Below are positions 8,082-19,474 of a stretch of 64,000 nucleotides of DNA, one piece after another. The stretch comes from Micrococcus terreus. Its GTDB lineage: Bacteria; Actinomycetota; Actinomycetes; Actinomycetales; Micrococcaceae. Below the pieces are notes generated by a model. That model was not told the origin of the DNA. It worked only from the letters and a program-made list of their open reading frames with translations, and searched no databases. Numbering within the stretch: the first letter of the stretch is position 1; every line of letters starts with the position of its first letter. The position numbers were made by a program, and so were the translations under genes. The stretch covers positions 62,001 through 126,000 of the forward strand of contig NZ_FPCG01000009.1 in NCBI RefSeq assembly GCF_900116905.1. Reading direction: 5' to 3'.

Positions 8082-8414
8082 TCAGCTCAGCGGGTGCATC
8101 ACCCGGAAGCGATAGTCACCGACCTCGAAGGTCTTGAACAGCTTCAGCCGAGAGGGATCCCAGTCCGGGACCGGACGGGTCTCCACGACCCGGCCGTCCT
8201 GGACGCCGACGAGGGTGGCCTGCCGGTCCTGGGTGACCAGCATCCAGCGCCGATCCAGGTTCGAGAACCGCTCGGCGTCGGTGAAGATGCCGAAGGTGAA
8301 CAGGTCGACGACGTTCATCAGGCCTGAGCGCTTCTTCAGGCGGTCCAGTGCGTGCACCGTGTCGCCGGGGCGGACGACGCCGTCCAGGATGCGCAGGGTG
8401 GCTGAGTCGGCCAT
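8082..8414 (-). CDS. Soluble 110-residue protein of unknown function at end of bacteriocin-like locus
   Basis: MADSATLRILDG begins a soluble, mostly beta-predicted protein with no signal peptide or membrane helix. The ATG at 8414 is preceded by AAGGAG 7 nt away, so it is translated independently. It has a mixed charged/hydrophobic pattern (FGIFTDAERFSNLDRRWMLV) that could fit a PH-like beta-barrel, but this is only an impression. It starts 67 nt after the membrane protein gene and precedes the hairpin at 7994, so it may be the last gene of the operon. A cytosolic immunity or regulatory role is possible but unproven. Confidence 0.65.
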   Translation of the reverse strand: MADSATLRILDGVVRPGDTVHALDRLKKRSGLMNVVDLFTFGIFTDAERFSNLDRRWMLVTQDRQATLVGVQDGRVVETRPVPDWDPSRLKLFKTFEVGDYRFRVMHPLS

Positions 8415-8481
8415 GTCATGTCTCCTTGAGTGTGAGTGGTGATTGGTGGGTCGTGCAGTCACGGCTGCGGTGTCGATGGAT

Positions 8482-9804
8482 TCACCGTAGGGCCGCCTCG
8501 GGGACAGGCACTACGTCCATTCGGTCAGAGTGGGCTGACCGAAGGGGTGCAGTCCTGGAGTGCGGGCGGTGCAGGGCCGCGGCGGCGCGGAACGAGGGAG
8601 CGTAGAGCATCGTCACCAGGATGATGAGCACGGTCACGGCACTGACCGCGGCTCCCCCGATCGCCACACCCAGGGTGAAGGACACGGTCAGGGTGTAGCG
8701 CACCGTGACCCTCCACCAGCCCAGCCGGCCCATGTCTGCGAGCAGTCGGGGCACATCGACGATGTGCACCGCCACCATGACCAGGGCGGCCAGGAGCAGG
8801 TGGATGAGGGGGGCTGCTGTGAGCAGGCCGATGACCAGGACGATGCTCCACGCCAGGACCGGATGGATCGCCAGGACGCGCAGCAGGTGACGACGCAGAC
8901 GGGTCCGGTCAGCGTGCAGGATGTGCATGCCGAAGTGATCGTCCTGCAGAATCCGGTACCCCTGGCGGTCCTTGGACATGAAGACGTTCTCCTGCAGGCA
9001 GACCACAGCCAGTGGCACCGCCCAGGCCGCGGGCGTGGAGATCATCAACAGGGCGAACAGTGCCGCGGAGGACAGCAGTGTGCCGACGGCCGGACGCCAC
9101 AGCAGCATCAGGTCCTTGTACAGCAGCGGCTTCCGGTTCACCAGCCAGCCGAGCATCCGACGGGCATCCGAGCTGCTCAGGCCCGAGCCGGAGGAGCGGA
9201 CCGCGATCGCGTCCATGGCCAGGGTCTGCAGCGCGCCCGCTAGGACCAGGATCCCGGCCACCCGCATCGGCGAGTCCATCAGCAGGTCAGGTGCTTGGAC
9301 GACGATCACGCCCAGGCCGACCAGAGCGGCGAGCAGCAGGACGATGTAGACCTGGACGGCTCGGGCGGGTGCGCGCGCACCGAACCGGACCACGGAGGGC
9401 AGCGGCATCAGAGCCATCACGTAGAGTCCGGCGACGAGGGCCAGCAGCTGCGCCTCGTCCAACACCAGGGCGGTCACGGTGAACAGGCTCAGTCCGATCG
9501 CGTGGGACAGCAGCCAGTCCGATGCCGCGTAGTGGCCCAGATAGGCCAGCCGGGTCTGCAGGCCGAACCGCTCCAGCCCGAAACGTCGCAGGTCGTCCAT
9601 GCGCAGGAACACGTCGGTGTCCCACAGACACATGACGTGCACCAGGCCCACATAGGCGCAGCCGAGCAGGATCAGCCACTCCGGGAACAGGATCATGCCG
9701 GCCACCAGGACGGCACCGAGGATCAGCCCACCGAGGATCTCGCGCCCGCGGCGCCGAGGTCGGCGCCGCCGGGTGGTCTGGGCCAGGGCCAGCGCGAACC
9801 TCAT
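8482..9804 (-). CDS. Polytopic membrane protein of bacteriocin-like locus (putative ABC permease)
   Basis: A 440-residue protein starting MRFALALAQTTRRRRPRRRG, a basic cytoplasmic N-terminus, followed by about ten to twelve hydrophobic segments. Its ATG (9804) overlaps the ABC ATPase stop by 4 nt (ATGA), indicating translational coupling. With no other obvious permease paired to that ATPase, it is likely the transmembrane subunit exporting the small peptide or providing producer immunity. I recognise no named family. The C-terminal 30 residues are hydrophilic and rich in Arg and His. Confidence 0.75.
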   Translation of the reverse strand: MRFALALAQTTRRRRPRRRGREILGGLILGAVLVAGMILFPEWLILLGCAYVGLVHVMCLWDTDVFLRMDDLRRFGLERFGLQTRLAYLGHYAASDWLLSHAIGLSLFTVTALVLDEAQLLALVAGLYVMALMPLPSVVRFGARAPARAVQVYIVLLLAALVGLGVIVVQAPDLLMDSPMRVAGILVLAGALQTLAMDAIAVRSSGSGLSSSDARRMLGWLVNRKPLLYKDLMLLWRPAVGTLLSSAALFALLMISTPAAWAVPLAVVCLQENVFMSKDRQGYRILQDDHFGMHILHADRTRLRRHLLRVLAIHPVLAWSIVLVIGLLTAAPLIHLLLAALVMVAVHIVDVPRLLADMGRLGWWRVTVRYTLTVSFTLGVAIGGAAVSAVTVLIILVTMLYAPSFRAAAALHRPHSRTAPLRSAHSDRMDVVPVPEAALR

Positions 9805-10385
9805 GACACTGCCCTCTCGAGTCGGCGACCGGTCACCGCGTAGACGGCCTCCACGGAGCGCTCCAGCTCCTCCAGATCGTGGCTGACCACGATGCACCGG
9901 CGGTCCTCGGTCTTCAGCAGGGCGGTCAGGTAGTCGTTGGACTGGCGGTCCAGCCCCTCGAACGGCTCGTCCAGCAGGAGGATCTCCGCCCGAGAGCACA
10001 GTCCCATCACGAGGGAGACCTTCTTCGCCGTCCCCTTGGAGAGCTCCCCCACCGGCACGTCCAGGTAGTCCGTCATGCCCAGCTGCTCCACGTATTCCAG
10101 CGCCCGCCGGGTGTCGAAGGACTCCAGGACCGAGCACAGGCTCAGCAGGTCGCGGGCGTGGAAGTGCTTGAAGCGCCCGAGGTCGTAGTCGACCAGGTAG
10201 GTCTCGCCGCTGACCCTCAGAGCGCCGTGCTCAGGCTCAAGCCGACCGTCCACGAGTTTCAACAGGGTGGTCTTCCCGGTGCCGTTGCGCCCGACGATGC
10301 CCACCCGGTTCTCCACGATCCGGTCTGAGTAGTCCTTGAACAGGTAGTCACGGAAGCGGAAGCTCAGATCATCAAACTCCAACAA
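9801..10385 (-). CDS. ABC transporter ATP-binding protein of bacteriocin-like locus
   Basis: A compact 194-residue nucleotide-binding domain. Walker A is VGRNGTGKTTLLK (about residues 29-41), the signature is degenerate (ELSKGTAKKVSL, LSKGT in place of LSGGQ), Walker B is EILLLDEPFEGLD and the switch His lies in VVSHDLEEL. LSKG-type signatures occur in small bacteriocin-immunity or export ATPases. It overlaps the SpoIIM-like gene by 14 nt upstream and the membrane gene by 4 nt downstream. It probably energises the neighbouring membrane proteins for peptide export or self-protection. Confidence 0.85.
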   Translation of the reverse strand: MLEFDDLSFRFRDYLFKDYSDRIVENRVGIVGRNGTGKTTLLKLVDGRLEPEHGALRVSGETYLVDYDLGRFKHFHARDLLSLCSVLESFDTRRALEYVEQLGMTDYLDVPVGELSKGTAKKVSLVMGLCSRAEILLLDEPFEGLDRQSNDYLTALLKTEDRRCIVVSHDLEELERSVEAVYAVTGRRLERAVS

Positions 10386-10956
10386 CGGCGGTTCCTTCCA
10401 GAATGGCCGCCACCAGGGTGATGGCCAGGATGAGCAGATAGCCCGGCAGCAGCCGGCGCAGGTCCCGGCCCAGGACGGGCAGGTCGCGCTGTGGGCTGTC
10501 GGTGAATCGCCGCAGGGCGAAGAGCATGCGGTAGCTCAGGGCCACCGACATGAGCAGGGCCACGGCCTCCAGGGAGGCATGGCGGTAGAGCAGGTCGAAC
10601 TGGCTGGTGAAGGGAAGGTTCAGCATCGCGCCCGTCGTCACTCCGAGCATGAAGAACTGGGGCAGCACCAGCAGGAGGTTCACCACCGGCAGCACGCTGA
10701 CCAGCAGGAAGAAGAGCAGGTTCGTCCGGAGGATGAAGGCGAACTCTCGGTGGTCCGAGGAGATCTGGATCGTCCCGTTGCCCTGCAGAAGGGTGGACAG
10801 GCCCGGCACCAGCTCGACGGCGGCCAGATGGACCAGCGCCAGGCCGACGACGAACGTGAAGGCTGCCAGAGCCATGTGGGCCTTCATGACCTCCCCCAGG
10901 GTGGACACGGGGCTCCATCGCACGCTCGAGGGTGCGGACAGTGCCACGGTGCTCAT
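10372..10956 (-). CDS. SpoIIM/DUF95-like membrane protein
   Basis: A 194-residue protein with about five membrane helices. The stretch ILRTNLLFFLLVSVLPVVN followed by FFMLGVTTGAML and the block YRHASLEAVALLMSVALSYRM matches the SpoIIM/DUF95 layout (an Asn-containing helix, then a small-residue helix, then H-x-x-x-E before a helix). DUF95 proteins are regular components of circular bacteriocin clusters, where they act in maturation or secretion, although stand-alone family members also exist. Its ATG overlaps the preceding gene's stop (ATGA, 10953-10956). Confidence 0.7.
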   Translation of the reverse strand: MSTVALSAPSSVRWSPVSTLGEVMKAHMALAAFTFVVGLALVHLAAVELVPGLSTLLQGNGTIQISSDHREFAFILRTNLLFFLLVSVLPVVNLLLVLPQFFMLGVTTGAMLNLPFTSQFDLLYRHASLEAVALLMSVALSYRMLFALRRFTDSPQRDLPVLGRDLRRLLPGYLLILAITLVAAILEGTAVVGV

Positions 10957-11432
10957 CCGACATATCCGAACGAGACCATGGCGGCATCGGCCCCCAGCCA
11001 CACCAGACTCGGCAGGGCGGCCACGAGTCCGGGAAGCGTGCGGAATCGGCCGCTGCGCGCCAGGCTGAGGCACAGCACCGCCGCAGGGACGAGGAAGATC
11101 AGTCCGCTCTCCGGGCCGGCGCCGGACTGCCTCAGGAAGGCGACGGCGACGTGTGCGGCCAAACCGGTCGTCAGCACCGGGGTCAACAGCGTGGTGACCT
11201 GGCGGGGCATCCAGGCCTGACGGTCCACCAGTCGGAAGGCGAACCGGCTGAGGAAGGTCACGATGACCACCCCCAGAATGGTGGGGATCAGGTACACCAC
11301 GAACAGGGCGCCCATCACCGCCCACGAGTGATCGCCGAGGGCTCCGGCGATCCTATCGTCCATGGAGCGCCACCCCAGCCAGGCGTTGGCGAGTCCGTGG
11401 GCCACGATGGTGACCCGAAGAAGATGCGTCAC
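10953..11432 (-). CDS. Four-helix membrane protein of bacteriocin-like locus, unknown function
   Basis: A 159-residue protein with four hydrophobic helices (about residues 37-60, 85-105, 112-125 and 132-150) and short polar loops. It is the first gene after the hairpin that follows the small-peptide gene and is coupled to the SpoIIM-like gene by a 4-nt overlap. Small polytopic proteins at this position in bacteriocin loci often serve maturation or immunity; nothing in the sequence separates these. I recognise no family. Confidence 0.7.
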   Translation of the reverse strand: MTHLLRVTIVAHGLANAWLGWRSMDDRIAGALGDHSWAVMGALFVVYLIPTILGVVIVTFLSRFAFRLVDRQAWMPRQVTTLLTPVLTTGLAAHVAVAFLRQSGAGPESGLIFLVPAAVLCLSLARSGRFRTLPGLVAALPSLVWLGADAAMVSFGYVG

Positions 11433-11533: not shown

Positions 11534-11776
11534 TCACAGCCACCCTGTGGCTGCACCGACGATGGCACCGACGGGGCCGGCCAGAGCGGCATTGGCTCCG
11601 AGGATCGTGGCCAGGTAGCCGGCCGCTGCGGTGGCACCGACGGTGGCGACACGGGAGACGATGGCCTTGGCCAGCGTCTTGCCGACCTTGGAGGCGATCC
11701 AGTTGATCACCCAGTTGGTCCCGTTCTCCTTCAGCTTCCTCTGGATCCACTTTCCGAAGAGGTATCCTGCCTGCAT
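11534..11776 (-). CDS. Candidate bacteriocin structural peptide, 80 residues, cationic and Gly/Ala-rich
   Basis: The peptide starts MQAGYLFGKWIQRKLKENG and ends in GAIVGAATGWL. The N-terminal half is amphipathic and basic (six Lys and two Arg against one Glu); the C-terminal half is a hydrophobic Gly/Ala/Val stretch. It has no Cys, no cleavable signal peptide and no double-Gly leader. AAAGGAG lies 6 nt before the ATG at 11776, so I prefer this start over an ATG 27 nt upstream. Size, charge and the DUF95-like, ABC and membrane neighbours fit a circular or leaderless bacteriocin. However, the Lys-rich region is N-terminal, unlike AS-48 or uberolysin, so the class is unresolved. A pore-forming toxin is another reading. 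Confidence 0.65.
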   Translation of the reverse strand: MQAGYLFGKWIQRKLKENGTNWVINWIASKVGKTLAKAIVSRVATVGATAAAGYLATILGANAALAGPVGAIVGAATGWL

Positions 11777-11789: not shown

Positions 11790-11882
11790 GATGAGAGTTT
11801 CATTCCAGATCGGTGATCCGAATTGAAATGCGATGCCTTGATGTGTTTGCTGAGCGGGGCTCGCCGCCGTTCAACAATTCAC

Positions 11883-11925
11883 AATCTAGGCGGGAGAAGA
11901 TACAGGGAATACGCCCATTCAGGCA
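11883..11925 (-). promoter_or_regulatory. Candidate regulated promoter of the bacteriocin-like gene
   Basis: On the minus strand TAGATT (11888-11883) is a good -10 with only a weak -35. The start would fall near 11876, giving a leader of about 100 nt. A dyad at 11912-11925 (plus strand CGCCCATTCAGGCA) is centred near -42. It resembles the perfect dyad TGCCCGTTCGGGCA found before the response regulator gene at 13648-13661, so it may be the regulator's binding site. This assignment is inference. Confidence 0.4.
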
Positions 11926-12009: not shown

Positions 12010-13251
12010 TCAGCGGGTGAGGGGGATCTCCACGTCCACGGACCAGCGGCCGTCCCGAACGCCTGCATGGGCCGTGCCGCCCACCAGGTGCGTGCGCTCG
12101 CGGATGTTCAGCAGCCCGTAGCCACGCGTGGCCGGCCATGCACCGTCGCCGCGGGGAGTGGCCGAGCCCTCACGAGGTGCGCCGTCCAGGTCATTGACCA
12201 CCTGGAGCACGAGGTGGTGATCCATGACGGTCAGGAAGATCTCGCAGCGCGCGCCGCGGGGGGCATGCTTGAGCACGTTGGCCGTCGACTCGATGAGGAT
12301 CCTGTGGAGGCCGACGAGCGCCGAACCGGGGACCTGGGCCTGGTCGTGGACGGAGGAGTGCACCTGGGTGGGCCGCCCGCTCTTCTCCAGCGCCTCACGC
12401 GCTGACTCGATGCCCACGACGATGTCTCCCACCGACCTCAGCTCGAGACCGTCGATGGCCTCGGGGCCCGCAGACCGGTTGCCGTCATCGGTGGAGATGT
12501 ACAGCACGTCCAGCAGCCCTCGGAGCTCGGCGTGGGCCTGGCGGGCCACTGCACCGAGCGTGCTGATCATCTGGGTCCGCTCCGCCTCGTCACGCACATG
12601 GTTCAACGCCTCGGCCTGCAGGGCGAGCACCGCCAGGTGGTGGGCCACCAGGTCGTGGAGGTCACGAGCGATGCTGCGCCGCACCTCGACGACCATCCGG
12701 TCGTGCCGTTCCCATTCCTCGGACCGCTCACTGGCCGCCCTGCGGGTCTCGGCATTCTGGCGTCGGAAGGCCAGGCCGAGATAGGCGCCGGCGAGCAGCC
12801 CCAGGAGCGCGATCACCACGCTCACTCCTGCCTCCGGGAAGAACAGGAGCGTCACGGCCTGGATCAGGGCCTGGCCGATGAGGAACACCAGGATGCTGTG
12901 ACGCCGCAGGTACAGGAAGGCGGCGGCGGTGATGAAGGGGACGGTCAGCAGTGGCAGCAGGGCTGATCCGACCATGGCGGCACTCGCGCCGACGATCAGA
13001 CTGGAGAAGACCATGACCGGAACGCTCACGGTCACCAGGAGCAGTGCCACGGCCAGCTGGCCGGTCACGGCGACGTAGGACCAGCCGATCTCCGACGCAG
13101 GTCGTCCCCCGGCGATGTCCAGGGCCACCAGAGCCCCTTCCAGGCCGATCAGGAGGACGGCCAGCAGCACGGTGGCCACGACGAATCGTCGCCCTGGGCG
13201 CGGCGGCTCTTCCTGGATCAGTGTCCAGAGCCTCTCGATCACAGCCCCCAT
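12010..13251 (-). CDS. Sensor histidine kinase (HisKA_3/NarL type)
   Basis: A 413-residue kinase with an N-terminal membrane domain of about six helices (residues 22-165), a short coiled region, the dimerisation/phosphoacceptor helix SIARDLHDLVAHHLAVLALQ with the His in RDLHD near residue 200, and a C-terminal HATPase domain ending in a G-box region (ATRGYGLLNIRERTHLVGG). There is no large extracytoplasmic loop, so the stimulus is probably sensed in or at the membrane, as in peptide-sensing kinases. The ATG at 13251 has GGAGG about 4 nt upstream. It is divergent from its likely partner regulator at 13732 and lies upstream of the peptide gene. Confidence 0.85.
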   Translation of the reverse strand: MGAVIERLWTLIQEEPPRPGRRFVVATVLLAVLLIGLEGALVALDIAGGRPASEIGWSYVAVTGQLAVALLLVTVSVPVMVFSSLIVGASAAMVGSALLPLLTVPFITAAAFLYLRRHSILVFLIGQALIQAVTLLFFPEAGVSVVIALLGLLAGAYLGLAFRRQNAETRRAASERSEEWERHDRMVVEVRRSIARDLHDLVAHHLAVLALQAEALNHVRDEAERTQMISTLGAVARQAHAELRGLLDVLYISTDDGNRSAGPEAIDGLELRSVGDIVVGIESAREALEKSGRPTQVHSSVHDQAQVPGSALVGLHRILIESTANVLKHAPRGARCEIFLTVMDHHLVLQVVNDLDGAPREGSATPRGDGAWPATRGYGLLNIRERTHLVGGTAHAGVRDGRWSVDVEIPLTR

Positions 13252-13359: not shown

Positions 13360-13611
13360 TCACCGCTTCTTCGGACAGGCACGGGGGAAGGCCTTGCAGA
13401 GCAGCTCCTGGATGACGTCGGGGTCCTCCGCCTCCGGCGCGTCCGCGGCCCGGGCCGGGGAGACCAGGACCGCGACCTCGGCCGGGTCAGCGGTCTCGTG
13501 CGCGATCGCCGGCACGGTCGAGCCGAACAGGGCCCCGGTGACCAGTGCCGCCACGGCCCCGAGGCGGATCGGAAGGGTGAGACGGGATGCGGTGCAGGTG
13601 ATGTGCGTCAT
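13360..13611 (-). CDS. Secreted small peptide with C-terminal two-cysteine loop
   Basis: An 83-residue precursor. Residues 1-37 form a signal peptide: a basic n-region, hydrophobic LGAVAALVTGALFGST and a VPAIA cleavage site. The mature part is acidic, then ends LLCKAFPRACPKKR, a basic tail with two Cys six residues apart that could close a disulfide loop. A third Cys is in the signal peptide. The gene lies between the kinase and regulator genes, which suggests an autoinducing pheromone for that two-component system or a second antimicrobial peptide. The start is weakly supported: GGAG is only 2 nt from the ATG. Confidence 0.55.
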   Translation of the reverse strand: MTHITCTASRLTLPIRLGAVAALVTGALFGSTVPAIAHETADPAEVAVLVSPARAADAPEAEDPDVIQELLCKAFPRACPKKR

Positions 13612-13647: not shown

Positions 13648-13680
13648 TGCCCGTTCGGGCAGTGAGATCTGCCCTTTCGG
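13648..13680. promoter_or_regulatory. Tandem operator-like repeats before the response regulator gene
   Basis: TGCCCGTTCGG (13648-13658) recurs as TGCCCTTTCGG (13670-13680), exactly 22 bp apart, about two helical turns. The first also forms a dyad, TGCCCGTTCGGGCA. The spacing on one DNA face fits cooperative binding by a dimeric response regulator; a related dyad lies before the small-peptide gene at 11912. Confidence 0.5.
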
Positions 13681-13731
13681 CCTGACTGACTCTGGCCTCA
13701 TGGTCACCGGGGTCGACGTTATCCTGACGGC

Positions 13732-14436
13732 ATGCATGAGATCACCGTCCTGGTCGCCGACGACGAGCCGTTGCTGCGCCAGGCCTACACCCTGATCCTG
13801 AACGCCGATCCGGAGTTCCGAGTGGTGGGCGAGGCCTGCGACGGCCGTGAGGCCGTGAAGAAGTATGACGAACTGCGTCCCGATGTGGTGATCATGGACC
13901 TGCGGATGCCCCGCCTGAGCGGAGTGGAGGCCACGGCCGAGATCATGGGCTCCTCGCCGCAGGCCCGCATCCTGGTGGTGACCTCCATGACGACCGAGGA
14001 GTATCTGGCGCCGGCGCTGGCCAACGGCGCCAGCGGGTATCTGACGAAAGACACCGACGGCGACCGGCTCAAGCAGGCCCTGCGGGATGTCGCCGCCGGA
14101 ACGGTGGCGCTGGGACCGGTGGTCGCCGAGAAGCTGGTCCGCCTGGTGGTGCAGAACCGTGCCACGGAGTCTGCGCTGCCGGAGCACGAGACCTCCGCTC
14201 CTGCCAGCCGCCCCGCCGCCGCTCCGCTGGCGGAGCCGTTGACACCCCGCGAGCAGAGCGTGCTGGACCTGCTGGCGGAGGGGCTGACGAATCAGGAGAT
14301 GAGCGAGCGGCTCTTCCTCTCCGACTCCACCGTCAAGGCCAACCTGGCCCGGGTCATGCACAAGCTGGGAGCCTCCAATCGCGTCCAGGCGCTCGTCCTC
14401 GCCGTCCGGCAGGGACTGGTGACCATCGGCGAGTGA
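13732..14436 (+). CDS. NarL/LuxR-family response regulator
   Basis: A 234-residue regulator. The receiver domain (residues 1-120) has the acidic pair Asp10/Asp11, the phosphoacceptor Asp56 in VVIMDLRMP and the conserved Lys in GYLTKDT. A linker of about 35 residues leads to a LuxR-type HTH (LTPREQSVLDLLAEG, TVKANLARVMHKLG). The ATG follows TATCCT (13720-13725) by 6 nt, indicating a leaderless transcript. It is divergent from the kinase gene and most likely controls the bacteriocin-like operon. It converges on the ABC exporter gene with a 10-nt gap. Confidence 0.9.
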   Translation: MHEITVLVADDEPLLRQAYTLILNADPEFRVVGEACDGREAVKKYDELRPDVVIMDLRMPRLSGVEATAEIMGSSPQARILVVTSMTTEEYLAPALANGASGYLTKDTDGDRLKQALRDVAAGTVALGPVVAEKLVRLVVQNRATESALPEHETSAPASRPAAAPLAEPLTPREQSVLDLLAEGLTNQEMSERLFLSDSTVKANLARVMHKLGASNRVQALVLAVRQGLVTIGE

Positions 14437-14446
14437 CCGCCGTCGG

Positions 14447-16681
14447 TCAGGGACGACCACTCCCGGGCACGTCCGGCTCCACGGAGCCCTGGCCGGGTGC
14501 CTGCGGCGCGGCGAGACCGCCCGTGGCGGCGACCCCAGGATCTCCGGTGCCCTCGCGCTCAGCCGGTGTGACGTCGTCGGGGCCTGCCTGGACCGGGATG
14601 GGACCGGTGCCCGGGGCCACCGCTGCGGCCTGGGCATCCAGGTCCACACCCTGGGTGAACTGGGACATGTACAGCCGGTGGTAGGCACCGCCGGCGGCCA
14701 GCAGCTGCTCATGGGAGCCCTGCTCCACGATGTCCCCGTGCTCCATCACCAGGATCACGTCCGCATCCCGGATGGTGGAGAGGCGGTGGGCGATCACGAA
14801 CGATGTACGGTCCGTGCGCAGGGCCGCCATGGCCTGCTGGACCAGCACCTCCGTGCGGGTGTCCACCGAGGAGGTGGCCTCGTCCAGGATGAGCAGGGCG
14901 GGATCGGCCAGGAAGGCGCGGGCGATGGTGATCAGCTGGCGTTCGCCGGCCGAGATGTTCGCGCCCTCGTCCTCGATCACCGTGTCATACCCCTCCGGCA
15001 GGGTGTGCACGAAGCGGTCCACGTAGGTGGCACGGGCCGCGGCCATGACCTCCTCGTCCGTGGCGTCCAGCCGGCCGTAGCGGATGTTCTCGCGGATGGT
15101 CCCGCCGAACAGCACCGCGTCCTGCAGCACCATGCCGACCTGTCCGCGCAGCACCCCGCGGTCCAGGGTGGAGGTGTCCACCCCGTCCAGCAGGATCCGG
15201 CCGGAGTCGATCTCGTAGAACCGCATGATCAGGTTGACCAGGGTGGTCTTGCCCGCGCCGGTGGGGCCGACGATCGCCACGGTCTGCCCCGGTTCGGCGG
15301 TCAAGGACAGGTCCGAGATCAGCGGCTTGTCCGGGGTGTAGGAGAAGGCCACGTGCTGGAACTCGATCCGCCCGCGCACCGGCTGGGCCAGCTCGTTGCG
15401 GCCGGCGCCCTCGGTGAGGTCCGGCTCCTGCTCGTCCGCGTCCAGCAGCTCGAAGATCCGCTCGGCCGAGGCCACCCCGGAGATGAGCATGTTGGACATG
15501 CCGGCCACCTGGCCCAGCGGCTGGTTGAACTCGCGGGAGTACTGGATGAACGCGGTCACCGCGCCCAGGGTCATCTGCCCGGTGGCCACGCGCAGTCCGC
15601 CCACCACGGCGATCCCCACGTAGCCCAGGTAGTTCACCCACTGCATGATCGGCATGATCATGCCCGAGTAGAACTGGGCCTTGAACGAGGCCTGGTAGAG
15701 CTCCTCGTTGCGCTCGTCGAACCGCTCGCCCATGTCCTGCTGGCGGCCGAACACGGTCACCAGTTCATGCCCGGTGAAGGACTCCTCGATGTGCCCGTTC
15801 AGCTGACCGGTGTGCCGCCACTGGGCGGTGAACAGCTTCTGGGACTTGGTGCCGATGATCCCGATCACCACGCCGGACAGCGGCAGGGCGATCAGCGCGA
15901 TCAGCGCCAGCTGCCACGAGAGCCAGAACATCATGAAGATGATGCCGATGATGGTCAGCACCGAGTACACCAGGGTGGCGAAGGCCTGCTGCATGGCCGA
16001 CTGCACGTTGTCCACGTCATTGGTGGTGCGCGAGAGCAGGTCGCCGCGCTGACGGGTGTCGAAGTAGCTCAGCGGCAGGCGGTTGACCTTGGCCTCGATG
16101 TCCTGACGCAGCCGGTAGACCACGCGCATCACGATGTCGTTGAGCACCCGGCCCTGCAGCCACATGAACAGCTGGGCCACCACGTACATGCCCAGCACGA
16201 TCAGGATCAACCGGGCCAGCTCGCCGAAGTCGATCCCCTGCCCCGGGACGAAGGCCATGCCCGAGAGCATGTCCGCTGCCTGGCCGTTCCCGGTGGCGCG
16301 CAGCCCCTCGATCACCTGGTCCCGGGTGAGGTCGGCGGGCATCTGGGCGGACAGGACGCCGCCGAAGATCACGTTCATGGCGTCCCCCAGGATGGAGGGT
16401 GCCCACACATTGAAGACCACCGCGACGACGACCATCGCCACCACGGCGATTATCCCCACCTTCTCTGCCCCGAAGGTCGCGAACAGTCGCTTGGCGGAGG
16501 GCCAGAAGGCCTTGGCCTTGCGGGGCGCGCCGCCTCCCCACTCGTCCGTCACGCCCTGCTCCTGGAACTGGGCGATCTCCTCTTCGGTGAGGTCCGTCGT
16601 CGTGATGTCCTGCTTCTTGGTGCTGCCGCGCTTCAGCTTCGCCGCGGACGAACCGCGGGTCTTCGCGTGCCTGCCGCTCAT
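14447..16681 (-). CDS. ABC exporter half-transporter, heterodimer subunit with consensus Walker B
   Basis: A 744-residue protein: a long polar N-terminus of about 75 residues, a six-helix exporter domain, then an ATPase domain with Walker A GPTGAGKTT and Walker B LLILDEATSSVD (catalytic Glu present). Its signature is degenerate (ISAGERQ rather than LSGGQ). The partner at 16678 has the opposite pattern, so together they form one canonical and one degenerate ATP site, the hallmark of heterodimeric exporters such as TM287/288. The Pro/Gly-rich C-terminal tail of about 70 residues is unusual. The start overlaps the partner stop by 4 nt. It likely exports drugs or lipids. Confidence 0.9.
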   Translation of the reverse strand: MSGRHAKTRGSSAAKLKRGSTKKQDITTTDLTEEEIAQFQEQGVTDEWGGGAPRKAKAFWPSAKRLFATFGAEKVGIIAVVAMVVVAVVFNVWAPSILGDAMNVIFGGVLSAQMPADLTRDQVIEGLRATGNGQAADMLSGMAFVPGQGIDFGELARLILIVLGMYVVAQLFMWLQGRVLNDIVMRVVYRLRQDIEAKVNRLPLSYFDTRQRGDLLSRTTNDVDNVQSAMQQAFATLVYSVLTIIGIIFMMFWLSWQLALIALIALPLSGVVIGIIGTKSQKLFTAQWRHTGQLNGHIEESFTGHELVTVFGRQQDMGERFDERNEELYQASFKAQFYSGMIMPIMQWVNYLGYVGIAVVGGLRVATGQMTLGAVTAFIQYSREFNQPLGQVAGMSNMLISGVASAERIFELLDADEQEPDLTEGAGRNELAQPVRGRIEFQHVAFSYTPDKPLISDLSLTAEPGQTVAIVGPTGAGKTTLVNLIMRFYEIDSGRILLDGVDTSTLDRGVLRGQVGMVLQDAVLFGGTIRENIRYGRLDATDEEVMAAARATYVDRFVHTLPEGYDTVIEDEGANISAGERQLITIARAFLADPALLILDEATSSVDTRTEVLVQQAMAALRTDRTSFVIAHRLSTIRDADVILVMEHGDIVEQGSHEQLLAAGGAYHRLYMSQFTQGVDLDAQAAAVAPGTGPIPVQAGPDDVTPAEREGTGDPGVAATGGLAAPQAPGQGSVEPDVPGSGRP

Positions 16682-18435
16682 GCCAGCTCCTCCGCGGTGA
16701 TCTGGGAGTCGACGATCTCCCGGTAGGTCTCAGAGCTGTCCAGCAGCTCGTGGTGGGTGCCCTGGCCGACGATCTTCCCCTCGTCCAGGACGATGATCTG
16801 ATCGGCCTCGGTGATGCTGGAGACGCGCTGGGCCACCATGATCACGGTGGCGTCCTGCGTGTACTCCCCGAGCGCGGCCCGCAGCTTCGCGTCCGTGGTG
16901 ACGTCCAGTGCGGAGAAGGAGTCGTCGAACAGGTAGACGCGCGGCCGAGCCACGAGCGCACGGGCGATGCACAGGCGCTGGCGTTGACCGCCGGAGACGT
17001 TGGTGCCGCCCTGCGAGATCCCGGACTCCAGCCCGGTCCTGACGTCCTCCCCAGACCCGGTGGTGCGCTCGGAGACGAAGTCGGTGGCCTGGGCGGTGTC
17101 CAGGGCGGCCCAGAGCTCATCCTCGCTCGCCTCCGGGCGGCCGAAGCGCAGGTTCTCCGCCACGGTGCCAGAGAACAGGTAGGGCTTCTGCGGGACCAGC
17201 CCGACGGCGCGGGTCAGGGTGGCCCGGTCCATCTGCGTCACCGGGACGCCGTCCACCAGGACCTCGCCGGAGGTGGCGTCGTACAGCCGCGGGATCAGGT
17301 TGACCAGAGTGGTCTTGCCCGAGCCCGTGGACCCGATGATCGCGGTGGTCTTCCCCGCCGGGGCGGTGAAGCTCACGCCGTCCAGCACGGGGGCCTCGGC
17401 TCCGGGGTAGGAGAAGGTGACCTCGCGGAACTCCACGGTCCCGTCATGGTGTTCGGGGGTGCGCGGGTGCGCCGGCTCCATCAGGGACGCCGGCGTGGTG
17501 AGGACCTCCATGATGCGCCGGGCGCAGATCACCGCGCGCGGGAGCATCATGAACATGAAGGTGCCCATCATCACCGCCATCAGGATCTGCAGCAGGTACT
17601 GCATGAACGCCGTCAGGGAACCCACCTGTACCAGCTCCTGGTCCACACGATGTCCGCCGAACCAGAGGACGGCGGCGGTGGCCAGGTGCAGGATCATGGT
17701 GATGATCGGACCCATCAGCACGAACAGCCGGCCGATCCGCACCGAGGTGTCCGTCAGGGCGGCGTTGGCGTCCGTGAACCGTTCAGCCTCATGGCGTTCC
17801 CGCACGAAGGCGCGCACCACGCGGATGCCCATGATCTGCTCACGCATCACGCCGTTGATGGCGTCGATGTTGTCCTGCATCCGCTGGAACAGGGGCATCA
17901 GCAGGCCCACGATGATCCCCACGATCACCAGCAGGATCGGCACCGAGACCCACACCAGCCAGGACAGGCCGGCGTCCTCCTGCACGGCCATGATGATCCC
18001 GCCCACGGACATGATCGGCACCATGACCATGAAGTTCAGTGCCATCAGCACGACCATCTGGACCTGCTGGACGTCATTGGTCCCGCGCGTGATCAGGGTG
18101 GGCGCACCGAAGCGGCCCACCTCCTCCGCGGAGAACCGGTCCACGCGGGTGTAGACCGAACGGCGGATGTCCCGGCCCATCGCCATGGACACCCGGGCGC
18201 CGAACCAGACGGCGGAGATGGCCGCGATCACCTGGACCAGGGCGACGCCGAGCATCACGGCGCCGGTGCGCCAGATGTAGTCGGTGTCCCCCACGGCCAC
18301 GCCCTGGTCGATGATGTCCGCGTTCAGGCTGGGCAGGTACAGCGTGGCCAGGGTGGAGACCAGCTGCAGCACCAGCACGGCGATGATGTGGCCCGTGTAG
18401 GGGCGCGCGTGCTCGCGCACGAGTTTCCAGAGCAT
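16678..18435 (-). CDS. ABC exporter half-transporter, heterodimer subunit with degenerate Walker B
   Basis: A 585-residue protein with a six-helix type-IV exporter domain (residues 1-310) and an ATPase domain with Walker A GSTGSGKTT and a canonical signature VSGGQRQRL. Walker B reads VYLFDDSFSALD: the catalytic Glu is replaced by Asp. This is expected for the subunit contributing the degenerate site of a heterodimeric multidrug-type exporter. It is the first gene of the pair and lies 168 nt after the TipAS-type MerR gene, which probably controls it. Confidence 0.9.
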   Translation of the reverse strand: MLWKLVREHARPYTGHIIAVLVLQLVSTLATLYLPSLNADIIDQGVAVGDTDYIWRTGAVMLGVALVQVIAAISAVWFGARVSMAMGRDIRRSVYTRVDRFSAEEVGRFGAPTLITRGTNDVQQVQMVVLMALNFMVMVPIMSVGGIIMAVQEDAGLSWLVWVSVPILLVIVGIIVGLLMPLFQRMQDNIDAINGVMREQIMGIRVVRAFVRERHEAERFTDANAALTDTSVRIGRLFVLMGPIITMILHLATAAVLWFGGHRVDQELVQVGSLTAFMQYLLQILMAVMMGTFMFMMLPRAVICARRIMEVLTTPASLMEPAHPRTPEHHDGTVEFREVTFSYPGAEAPVLDGVSFTAPAGKTTAIIGSTGSGKTTLVNLIPRLYDATSGEVLVDGVPVTQMDRATLTRAVGLVPQKPYLFSGTVAENLRFGRPEASEDELWAALDTAQATDFVSERTTGSGEDVRTGLESGISQGGTNVSGGQRQRLCIARALVARPRVYLFDDSFSALDVTTDAKLRAALGEYTQDATVIMVAQRVSSITEADQIIVLDEGKIVGQGTHHELLDSSETYREIVDSQITAEELA

Positions 18436-18586: not shown

Positions 18587-18607
18587 CTGACCGGTCCTGC
18601 CGGTCAG
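18587..18607 (-). terminator. Short hairpin at the end of the MerR gene
   Basis: CTGACCGG and CCGGTCAG form an 8-bp stem around a 5-nt loop overlapping the MerR stop codon. It could cause partial termination before the exporter genes. There is no U-tract, so the assignment is weak. Confidence 0.3.
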
Positions 18608-19467
18608 TTCCGCGCGGCCAGGCGGTCGGCGTTCGCGTGGATCGCATCCCGCAGGTAGGCCGCCAGACCCGGCCGGACGTCGTCGTAGGTCTTCGTGAAC
18701 CGTGGATCCTGGACGTACATGTCCCCCAGGCAGCGATGGAACTCCCCGTCCAGCGGGTAGAACCAGGTGTCGATCACCAGGCGGGCGGCCTCCGCGGCGT
18801 CCATGGCCTGCTCGGAGTCGGCGGGCAGTCCGGCGTCCAGCGCGGCCGCGATCTGCTCGTTGGCCCGGTCCGTGTCCGCCTTGATCTGCTCCCACTCGGA
18901 CTTGCCGTACCCCTTGGTCCGGCGGCGCGACTCCGCCCACGCCTCCGTGTCACCCCAGCGCTCCTGGGCCTCCTCGGCGTAGTCGTCGTTGAAGCCGTTG
19001 CCGAAGAGCTCCTTCTGCTCGTCCGGGCTCAGTTGATGTCCCTTCATGTCTGCCTCCAATGCAGTGTCCACAGCGGCCAGCAGCCGCGTGAGCTCGGTCA
19101 GTCTCTCCTCGATCAGGTCCCGCTGCCGCTCCAGCGCCCGGCGCGTGCCGGCCCCACCGGATCCCGGCTCCGCGTCCACCACGGCGGCGATGTCCTCCAG
19201 GGACATCCCCAGACGGCGGTACGCCACCACCTGCTGCAGCCGGTCCAGGTCCGCGTCCGAGTACAGGCGGTACCCGGCGGAGCTGCGCGCCTGCGGCGTG
19301 ACCAGCCCGATCCTGTCGTAGTGGTGCAGCGTGCGCACCGTGACCCCGGTGGCCTCGGCGGTCTCCCCCACGGTCATCAGCGCCACCTCCGGGTGGACGG
19401 GGCGCCGGACGGACGAGGGTCCCGACGGCGGCCCCTCACCGGGGCGGGCAGGTCCTGATCTCTTCAT
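18604..19467 (-). CDS. MerR family regulator with TipAS ligand-binding domain
   Basis: A 287-residue activator. After a 25-30-residue Pro-rich extension comes a MerR HTH (VGETAEATGVTVRTLHHYDR), a coiled-coil dimerisation helix (about 110-150) and a C-terminal TipAS-like helical domain (FNDDYAEEAQERWGDTEAW). TipAS domains trap thiopeptides and other multidrug ligands, leading to activation of resistance genes. The ATG at 19467 sits 7 nt behind a promoter with a 19-bp spacer, so I prefer it over the GTG at 19473. It precedes the heterodimeric ABC exporter in the same direction, which is its probable target. Confidence 0.9.
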   Translation of the reverse strand: MKRSGPARPGEGPPSGPSSVRRPVHPEVALMTVGETAEATGVTVRTLHHYDRIGLVTPQARSSAGYRLYSDADLDRLQQVVAYRRLGMSLEDIAAVVDAEPGSGGAGTRRALERQRDLIEERLTELTRLLAAVDTALEADMKGHQLSPDEQKELFGNGFNDDYAEEAQERWGDTEAWAESRRRTKGYGKSEWEQIKADTDRANEQIAAALDAGLPADSEQAMDAAEAARLVIDTWFYPLDGEFHRCLGDMYVQDPRFTKTYDDVRPGLAAYLRDAIHANADRLAARN

Positions 19468-19474
19468 GGTCACC

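Follow-up and report, generated by a model that had tools for sequence, protein, structure and literature searches.

Several described systems couple a ribosomally synthesized peptide to a membrane kinase encoded in its vicinity. In the ComQXPA system of Bacillus, a peptide pheromone (ComX), a multi-pass kinase (ComP) and a NarL/LuxR-type regulator (ComA) are encoded together; the signal is hypervariable with a conserved layout, and ComX carries an isoprenylated Trp that depends on ComQ. Agr-type systems (AgrBDCA) use a short C-terminal ring peptide and a membrane kinase sensor, and feature autoinduction and a divergent promoter. In the three-component regulation of class II bacteriocins, such as plantaricin and sakacin, the induction peptide adjoins the kinase and regulator genes, and the cluster is controlled via repeated operators. 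These induction peptides have double-glycine leaders and are exported by ABC transporters, and the regulators are of the LytTR type.

The locus analyzed here lies in a 64,000-nt stretch of Micrococcus terreus DNA, hereafter the window, and by analogy would work like ComX/ComP/ComA or Agr, although as far as tested it appears to fail their defining chemistry and enzymes. With a probability of roughly 75%, we consider the small peptide encoded at this locus to be a Sec-exported, probably disulfide-closed pheromone that acts through a HisKA_3 kinase and a NarL regulator in autoinduction and bacteriocin activation. The genes and peptide segments concerned are the following:

13360–13611, minus strand: peptide precursor gene, 83 aa, with ATG at 13611 and TGA at 13362–13360
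13501–13611, minus strand: signal-peptide-like region, residues 1–37, MTHITCTASRLTLPIRLGAVAALVTGALFGSTVPAIA, assigned by inspection, hydrophobic score 2.31
13375–13398, minus strand: Cys loop Cys72-KAFPRA-Cys79, with two Cys, a six-residue loop and Pro at loop position 4, followed by a PKKR tail
12010–13251, minus strand: membrane sensor histidine kinase of the HisKA_3 type (PF07730, 5.6e-12), the presumed receptor, whose relatives carry peptides
13732–14436, plus strand: divergent NarL/LuxR response regulator (PF00072, 2.1e-27; PF00196, 6.4e-18)

As in ComQXPA, candidate pheromone, membrane kinase and NarL-type regulator are found together, with a hypervariable peptide of conserved layout; the kinase is of the HisKA_3 type and the regulator of the NarL/LuxR type (PF07730, PF00072 and PF00196), and the kinase has four or more TM-like segments. 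Unlike ComQXPA, the window system is actinobacterial and has a Sec signal peptide, a two-Cys ring and a divergent regulator; there is no ComQ isoprenyl transferase gene, or any gene besides that of the peptide, in the interval between kinase and regulator, and Trp is absent from the peptide. With Agr it shares a C-terminal ring peptide, a membrane kinase, a divergent promoter and the proposed autoinduction. It differs in having two Cys instead of a thiolactone Cys, a Sec signal peptide, and a HisKA_3 kinase with a Response_reg plus GerE regulator in place of an HPK10-type kinase and a LytTR regulator, and a search of the whole producer genome for the AgrB processing protease (PF04647) gave no match. 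The resemblance to class II bacteriocin regulation lies in the candidate signal beside the kinase and regulator, the putative repeated operators and the bacteriocin-like cluster, whereas Sec export, the Cys ring and the NarL regulator set the system apart from class II induction peptides. On inspection, the peptide has no GG site of a double-glycine leader before the C-terminal core, and its N-terminus is of the Sec type.

The peptide ORF is real and coding. GC content by codon position is 0.71/0.56/0.90, and the GC3 profile peaks at 0.88–0.98 across the ORF and drops on either side, so that the GC-frame signal is bounded by the ORF ends; antisense ORFs at the locus have no such profile. A GGAG precedes the ATG with a spacing of only 2 nt, which is a weak Shine-Dalgarno context. 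The first-pass annotation had described a signal peptide, an acidic spacer and a two-Cys C-terminus, and all three are seen in the 83-aa ORF. Residues 1–37 have, by inspection, a Sec-type appearance with two Arg, a hydrophobic core and the sequence AIA|HE, and are followed by the acidic spacer and the C-terminal end LLCKAFPRACPKKR. The position between a kinase and a regulator gene also holds: the kinase gene is downstream in the same orientation, and the regulator gene is divergent.

No homologue of the peptide was found by sequence search of 8 genus and 395 family genomes, and the only matches in GTDB contigs, viral contigs and plasmids were chance ones to the signal peptide. The sequence of the peptide is thus an orphan, whereas its genomic slot and C-terminal layout are recurrent. 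A search of 245 family genomes with the kinase only returned 43 places, 42 of them testable for a peptide. These were scanned blindly for ORFs of 35–140 aa with a hydrophobic N-terminus and a C-x4-8-C motif at the very C-terminus, and in 36 of the 42 a Cys-loop peptide is encoded between regulator and kinase in the orientation of the kinase. With all bait sets combined and duplicates removed, the same holds for 55/64 unique divergent pairs and for 0/108 tandem pairs; because part of the later locus set was retrieved with an alignment of peptide-associated kinases, 36/42 is the cleanest figure. The background of the scan is 30 matches in 1.44 Mb, both strands counted (0.0104 per kb per strand, or about 0.4% per 400-nt gap), which makes a Cys-loop ORF in the kinase/regulator gap unlikely by chance. 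A GTDB scan with a regulator alignment was too generic, and its 80 generic NarL-regulator loci were reused as a control set; a single convincing peptide came out of this set, from Kocuria marina, and it lies precisely in the expected slot at the one divergent pair among them. The expectation of the first-pass annotation that homologues should accompany this kinase is therefore borne out for two-Cys peptides as a class, and not for the exact sequence.

The two closest kinase relatives, from another genus, have the same arrangement of three genes with other peptides, ending in IFCKFFRSC and YICRRVPIIPC, and the peptide of another kinase relative ends in VVCRWLPTWCYGR. A class-level search beyond the order gave 14 new loci, almost all of them lacking a peptide and one divergent with a peptide; the peptide of the one family member outside the order (L217) ends in YALCSYYPDWCGPQWQIPQK. 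In the kinase tree, peptide-bearing kinases group together, with 7 label changes compared with at least 30 in shuffles. A second peptide/kinase/regulator system of this kind is present in the same genome (L193:9008–11282, contig C10), where the peptide ends in WLCKVFGIFCG. Its neighbors are, by inspection, GcvT-like, UmuC-like and DsbA/FrnE-like genes, likewise found in L207, a related genome from the same genus.

Nine divergent relatives yielded no peptide in the scan, five with gaps of 58–184 nt and four others. The pairs L053–L055, L194 and L204, all from one genus, are divergent with a 58–184 nt gap, and the absence of a scanned peptide may reflect either loss or a signal encoded elsewhere. 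The regulator–kinase gaps of L187 and L190 hold short ORFs that have no leader but encode the same Cys ring (MFASSIWTALCKLLRACS and MFGVVPMGFWTWLCEASGFCK), which suggests a leaderless variant of the Cys-loop peptide. At L188 and L189, a short ORF without Cys (MGIFYIFGKMIGIFR) is present and no Cys-loop peptide was found by the scan. In a differing arrangement, L155, L156 and L172 have a Cys-loop peptide gene antisense between tandem regulator and kinase genes. A related tandem pair adjoins a signal-peptide ORF (L192:1094–1369) that ends in DLACQVLGDFFEKC, with a nine-residue loop that exceeds the limits of the scan.

Of 50 unique peptides, 43 have a six-residue loop, 6 a five-residue loop and 1 a seven-residue loop, and the tail after the second Cys has 0–5 residues. 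Position 4 is Gly or Pro in 20 of 22 non-redundant six-residue loops; hydrophobic or aromatic residues predominate at positions 3 and 6, and the remaining positions are variable. The two Cys are fixed by the design of the scan, whereas the loop length of 6 and the Gly/Pro at position 4 were not imposed, and background ORFs show no comparable peak in loop length. Outside these features the peptides are hypervariable, and the charge of the loop is not conserved. The window loop KAFPRA fits the pattern, with Phe at position 3 and Pro at position 4, and the window system as a whole has the family layout of a secreted C-x5-7-C peptide codirectional with a HisKA_3 kinase, and a divergent NarL regulator. 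None of 11 peptides scanned matched Pfam or NCBIfam.

In one genus, constraint on the peptide is strongest over the C-terminal 16 codons, which are under purifying selection (pN 0.089 and pS 0.77, vs 0.20 and 0.59 for the upstream remainder), in agreement with the earlier suggestion that conservation would concentrate at the C-terminus. Distances among kinases and among peptides correlate, and peptide and kinase are co-inherited; the sensor part of the kinase shows no excess covariation with the peptide relative to the catalytic part (partial Mantel r about 0, p 0.67–0.80). These small secreted peptides apparently constitute an undescribed, fast-evolving family, found in many actinobacteria next to sensor kinases of one type, and a literature search of partial coverage found no published description of it.

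The proposed regulatory circuit involves the following elements:

13648–13683, no strand assigned: putative regulator operator in the divergent peptide/regulator promoter, palindromic repeat TGCCCGTTCGGGCA-N8-TGCCCTTTCGG / TGCCCGTTCGGGCA-N8-TGCCCTTTCGGCCT
11882–11925, minus strand: putative target promoter from a pattern search, half-site TGCCTGAATGGGCG, 37 nt from half-site start to TAGATT
11534–11773 (longer start at 11803), minus strand: bacteriocin-like peptide, 79 aa, the presumed target gene, a hydrophobic/cationic small ORF with the shared promoter upstream
8082–11432, minus strand: presumed bacteriocin export/immunity genes, encoding small membrane proteins, an ABC ATPase, a large membrane protein and a 126-aa protein

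The TGCCCGTTCGGGCA-N8 operator at 13648–13683 has no other exact match in the genome, and when the genome was searched more widely for a regulon under the double operator, the additional matches were at chance level only. Its 22-nt period is also present in the relative L031/L059. In L059, the operator element occurs in the divergent promoter and in four copies, spaced by 21–22 nt, upstream of a circular bacteriocin gene, with 8 sites observed vs 0.87 expected. In L060, a single exact site precedes the PF09221 gene. A target-promoter pattern derived from L059 and L060 alone, consisting of the operator half-site and TAGATTC at a fixed distance, has one match in the window, located upstream of the bacteriocin-like gene, with 0.00 expected; loosened to fit the window site, it occurs once in the genome. 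The half-site before the window gene is degenerate, two changes away from TGCCCGAACGG. A promoter composed of half-site and TAGATT is thus common to the window gene and to the two PF09221 genes beside the nearest relatives.

Circular bacteriocins of the uberolysin family (PF09221) are relevant in this respect: the two nearest relatives adjoin PF09221 genes that bear the shared operator-promoter, unlike the window 79-aa peptide, which has no match to PF09221. The precursors (L059:12558–12848 and L060:3534–3824) are accompanied by SpoIIM-like and ABC genes and lie under the putative operator; both pass the PF09221 cut-off (26.8 bits vs 23.6), and the genomes appear to be Micrococcus-like. The 79-aa peptide belongs to no Pfam or NCBIfam family, matches neither PF09221 nor TIGR03651, and has no homologue in 245 family genomes. 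Comparison likewise gave no support for its homology to the circular bacteriocin of the relatives, or for that of the membrane protein at 10372–10950 to their SpoIIM protein. Because the 79-aa product is an orphan and falls outside PF09221, calling it a bacteriocin is based on context, and it is a presumptive antimicrobial. Among the adjoining genes, that at 9801–10385 encodes an ABC ATPase (ABC_tran, 5.7e-19), and the 126-aa protein shares 52% identity over 122 aa with a protein near L060. This protein, of no known family, recurs: it is encoded at 8082–8462 in the window and twice in L060 (2941–3303 and 10496–10816). On the other side of the regulator, 14447–18435 and 18604–19473 hold a pair of ABC exporter half-transporter-like genes and, after them, a MerR regulator, which has a TipAS antibiotic-recognition domain (PF07739).

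In the proposed mechanism, the precursor would be exported by Sec, and the two C-terminal Cys would close an eight-residue ring, C-KAFPRA-C, probably through a disulfide; a further cut may free the cyclic C-terminal part. At high density the peptide would activate the multi-pass HisKA_3 kinase encoded just downstream, which would phosphorylate the divergent NarL-type regulator. Binding of the regulator to TGCCCGAACGG-type repeats in the shared promoter would result in autoinduction, and binding to the half-site 37 nt before the TAGATT of the bacteriocin-like gene in target activation. The data show that the ORF is coding, that its position, orientation and Cys-loop layout are conserved, that its C-terminus is under purifying selection in one genus and that promoter elements are shared; we infer the ring chemistry, processing, ligand–receptor contact, DNA binding and density dependence.

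Other readings of the same locus have to be considered. That the peptide ORF arose by chance in a high-GC intergenic region would agree with the weak Shine-Dalgarno context and with the lack of a homologue of the exact sequence, but it does not account for the GC3 profile, for a frequency of 55/64 against an expected 0.4% or so, or for the constraint on the C-terminus in one genus, and is highly improbable. The peptide could instead be a secreted accessory or inhibitor that locks or tunes the kinase in the envelope of its own cell, and not a diffusible signal. Close linkage and codirectionality with the kinase gene would fit any kinase ligand, this one included, whereas a signal peptide without anchor or lipobox, a small Cys ring, and loops that diverge strongly among lineages, as in pherotypes, speak against it; we regard such a role as unlikely.

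The first-pass annotation had offered two roles, a pheromone or a second antimicrobial peptide. As the latter, the product would belong to the bacteriocin locus, and the kinase would sense its own product or damage, as for self-induced bacteriocins; some lantibiotics self-induce, which provides a precedent, and a short peptide with a cationic C-terminus and hydrophobic loops next to a bacteriocin-like cluster is compatible with this role. However, other copies, including the second one in the genome, are located among ordinary genes with no recognizable bacteriocin genes adjoining, and on this ground we favor the pheromone. The conserved feature is the slot between regulator and kinase and not linkage to bacteriocins, and loop charge varies across the family, which makes a second antimicrobial quite unlikely. 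The same annotation held that the pheromone proposal would fail if homologous kinases lacked the peptide, or if the Cys were not conserved; both conditions were examined on the kinase relatives, and the proposal survived.

Returning to the pheromone reading, it is likely, at slightly less assurance than for the window system itself, that Sec-exported disulfide-ring peptides with dedicated HisKA_3/NarL systems form an unrecognized pheromone class, which would be widespread and hypervariable (pherotype-like) in Micrococcales, extend to at least one other actinobacterial order, and sometimes control circular or other bacteriocin clusters. Little is known of peptide-based quorum sensing in actinobacteria; for quorum sensing of any kind, a 2016 review listed experimental evidence in just nine genera of the group (PMC4748050), and according to a 2018 review the activators of kinases adjoining circular bacteriocin clusters had not been identified (PMC6131525). 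Across dozens of genomes from culturable actinobacteria, Kocuria included, the family offers candidate signals that can be synthesized, along with a receptor, a regulator, an operator and a target promoter.
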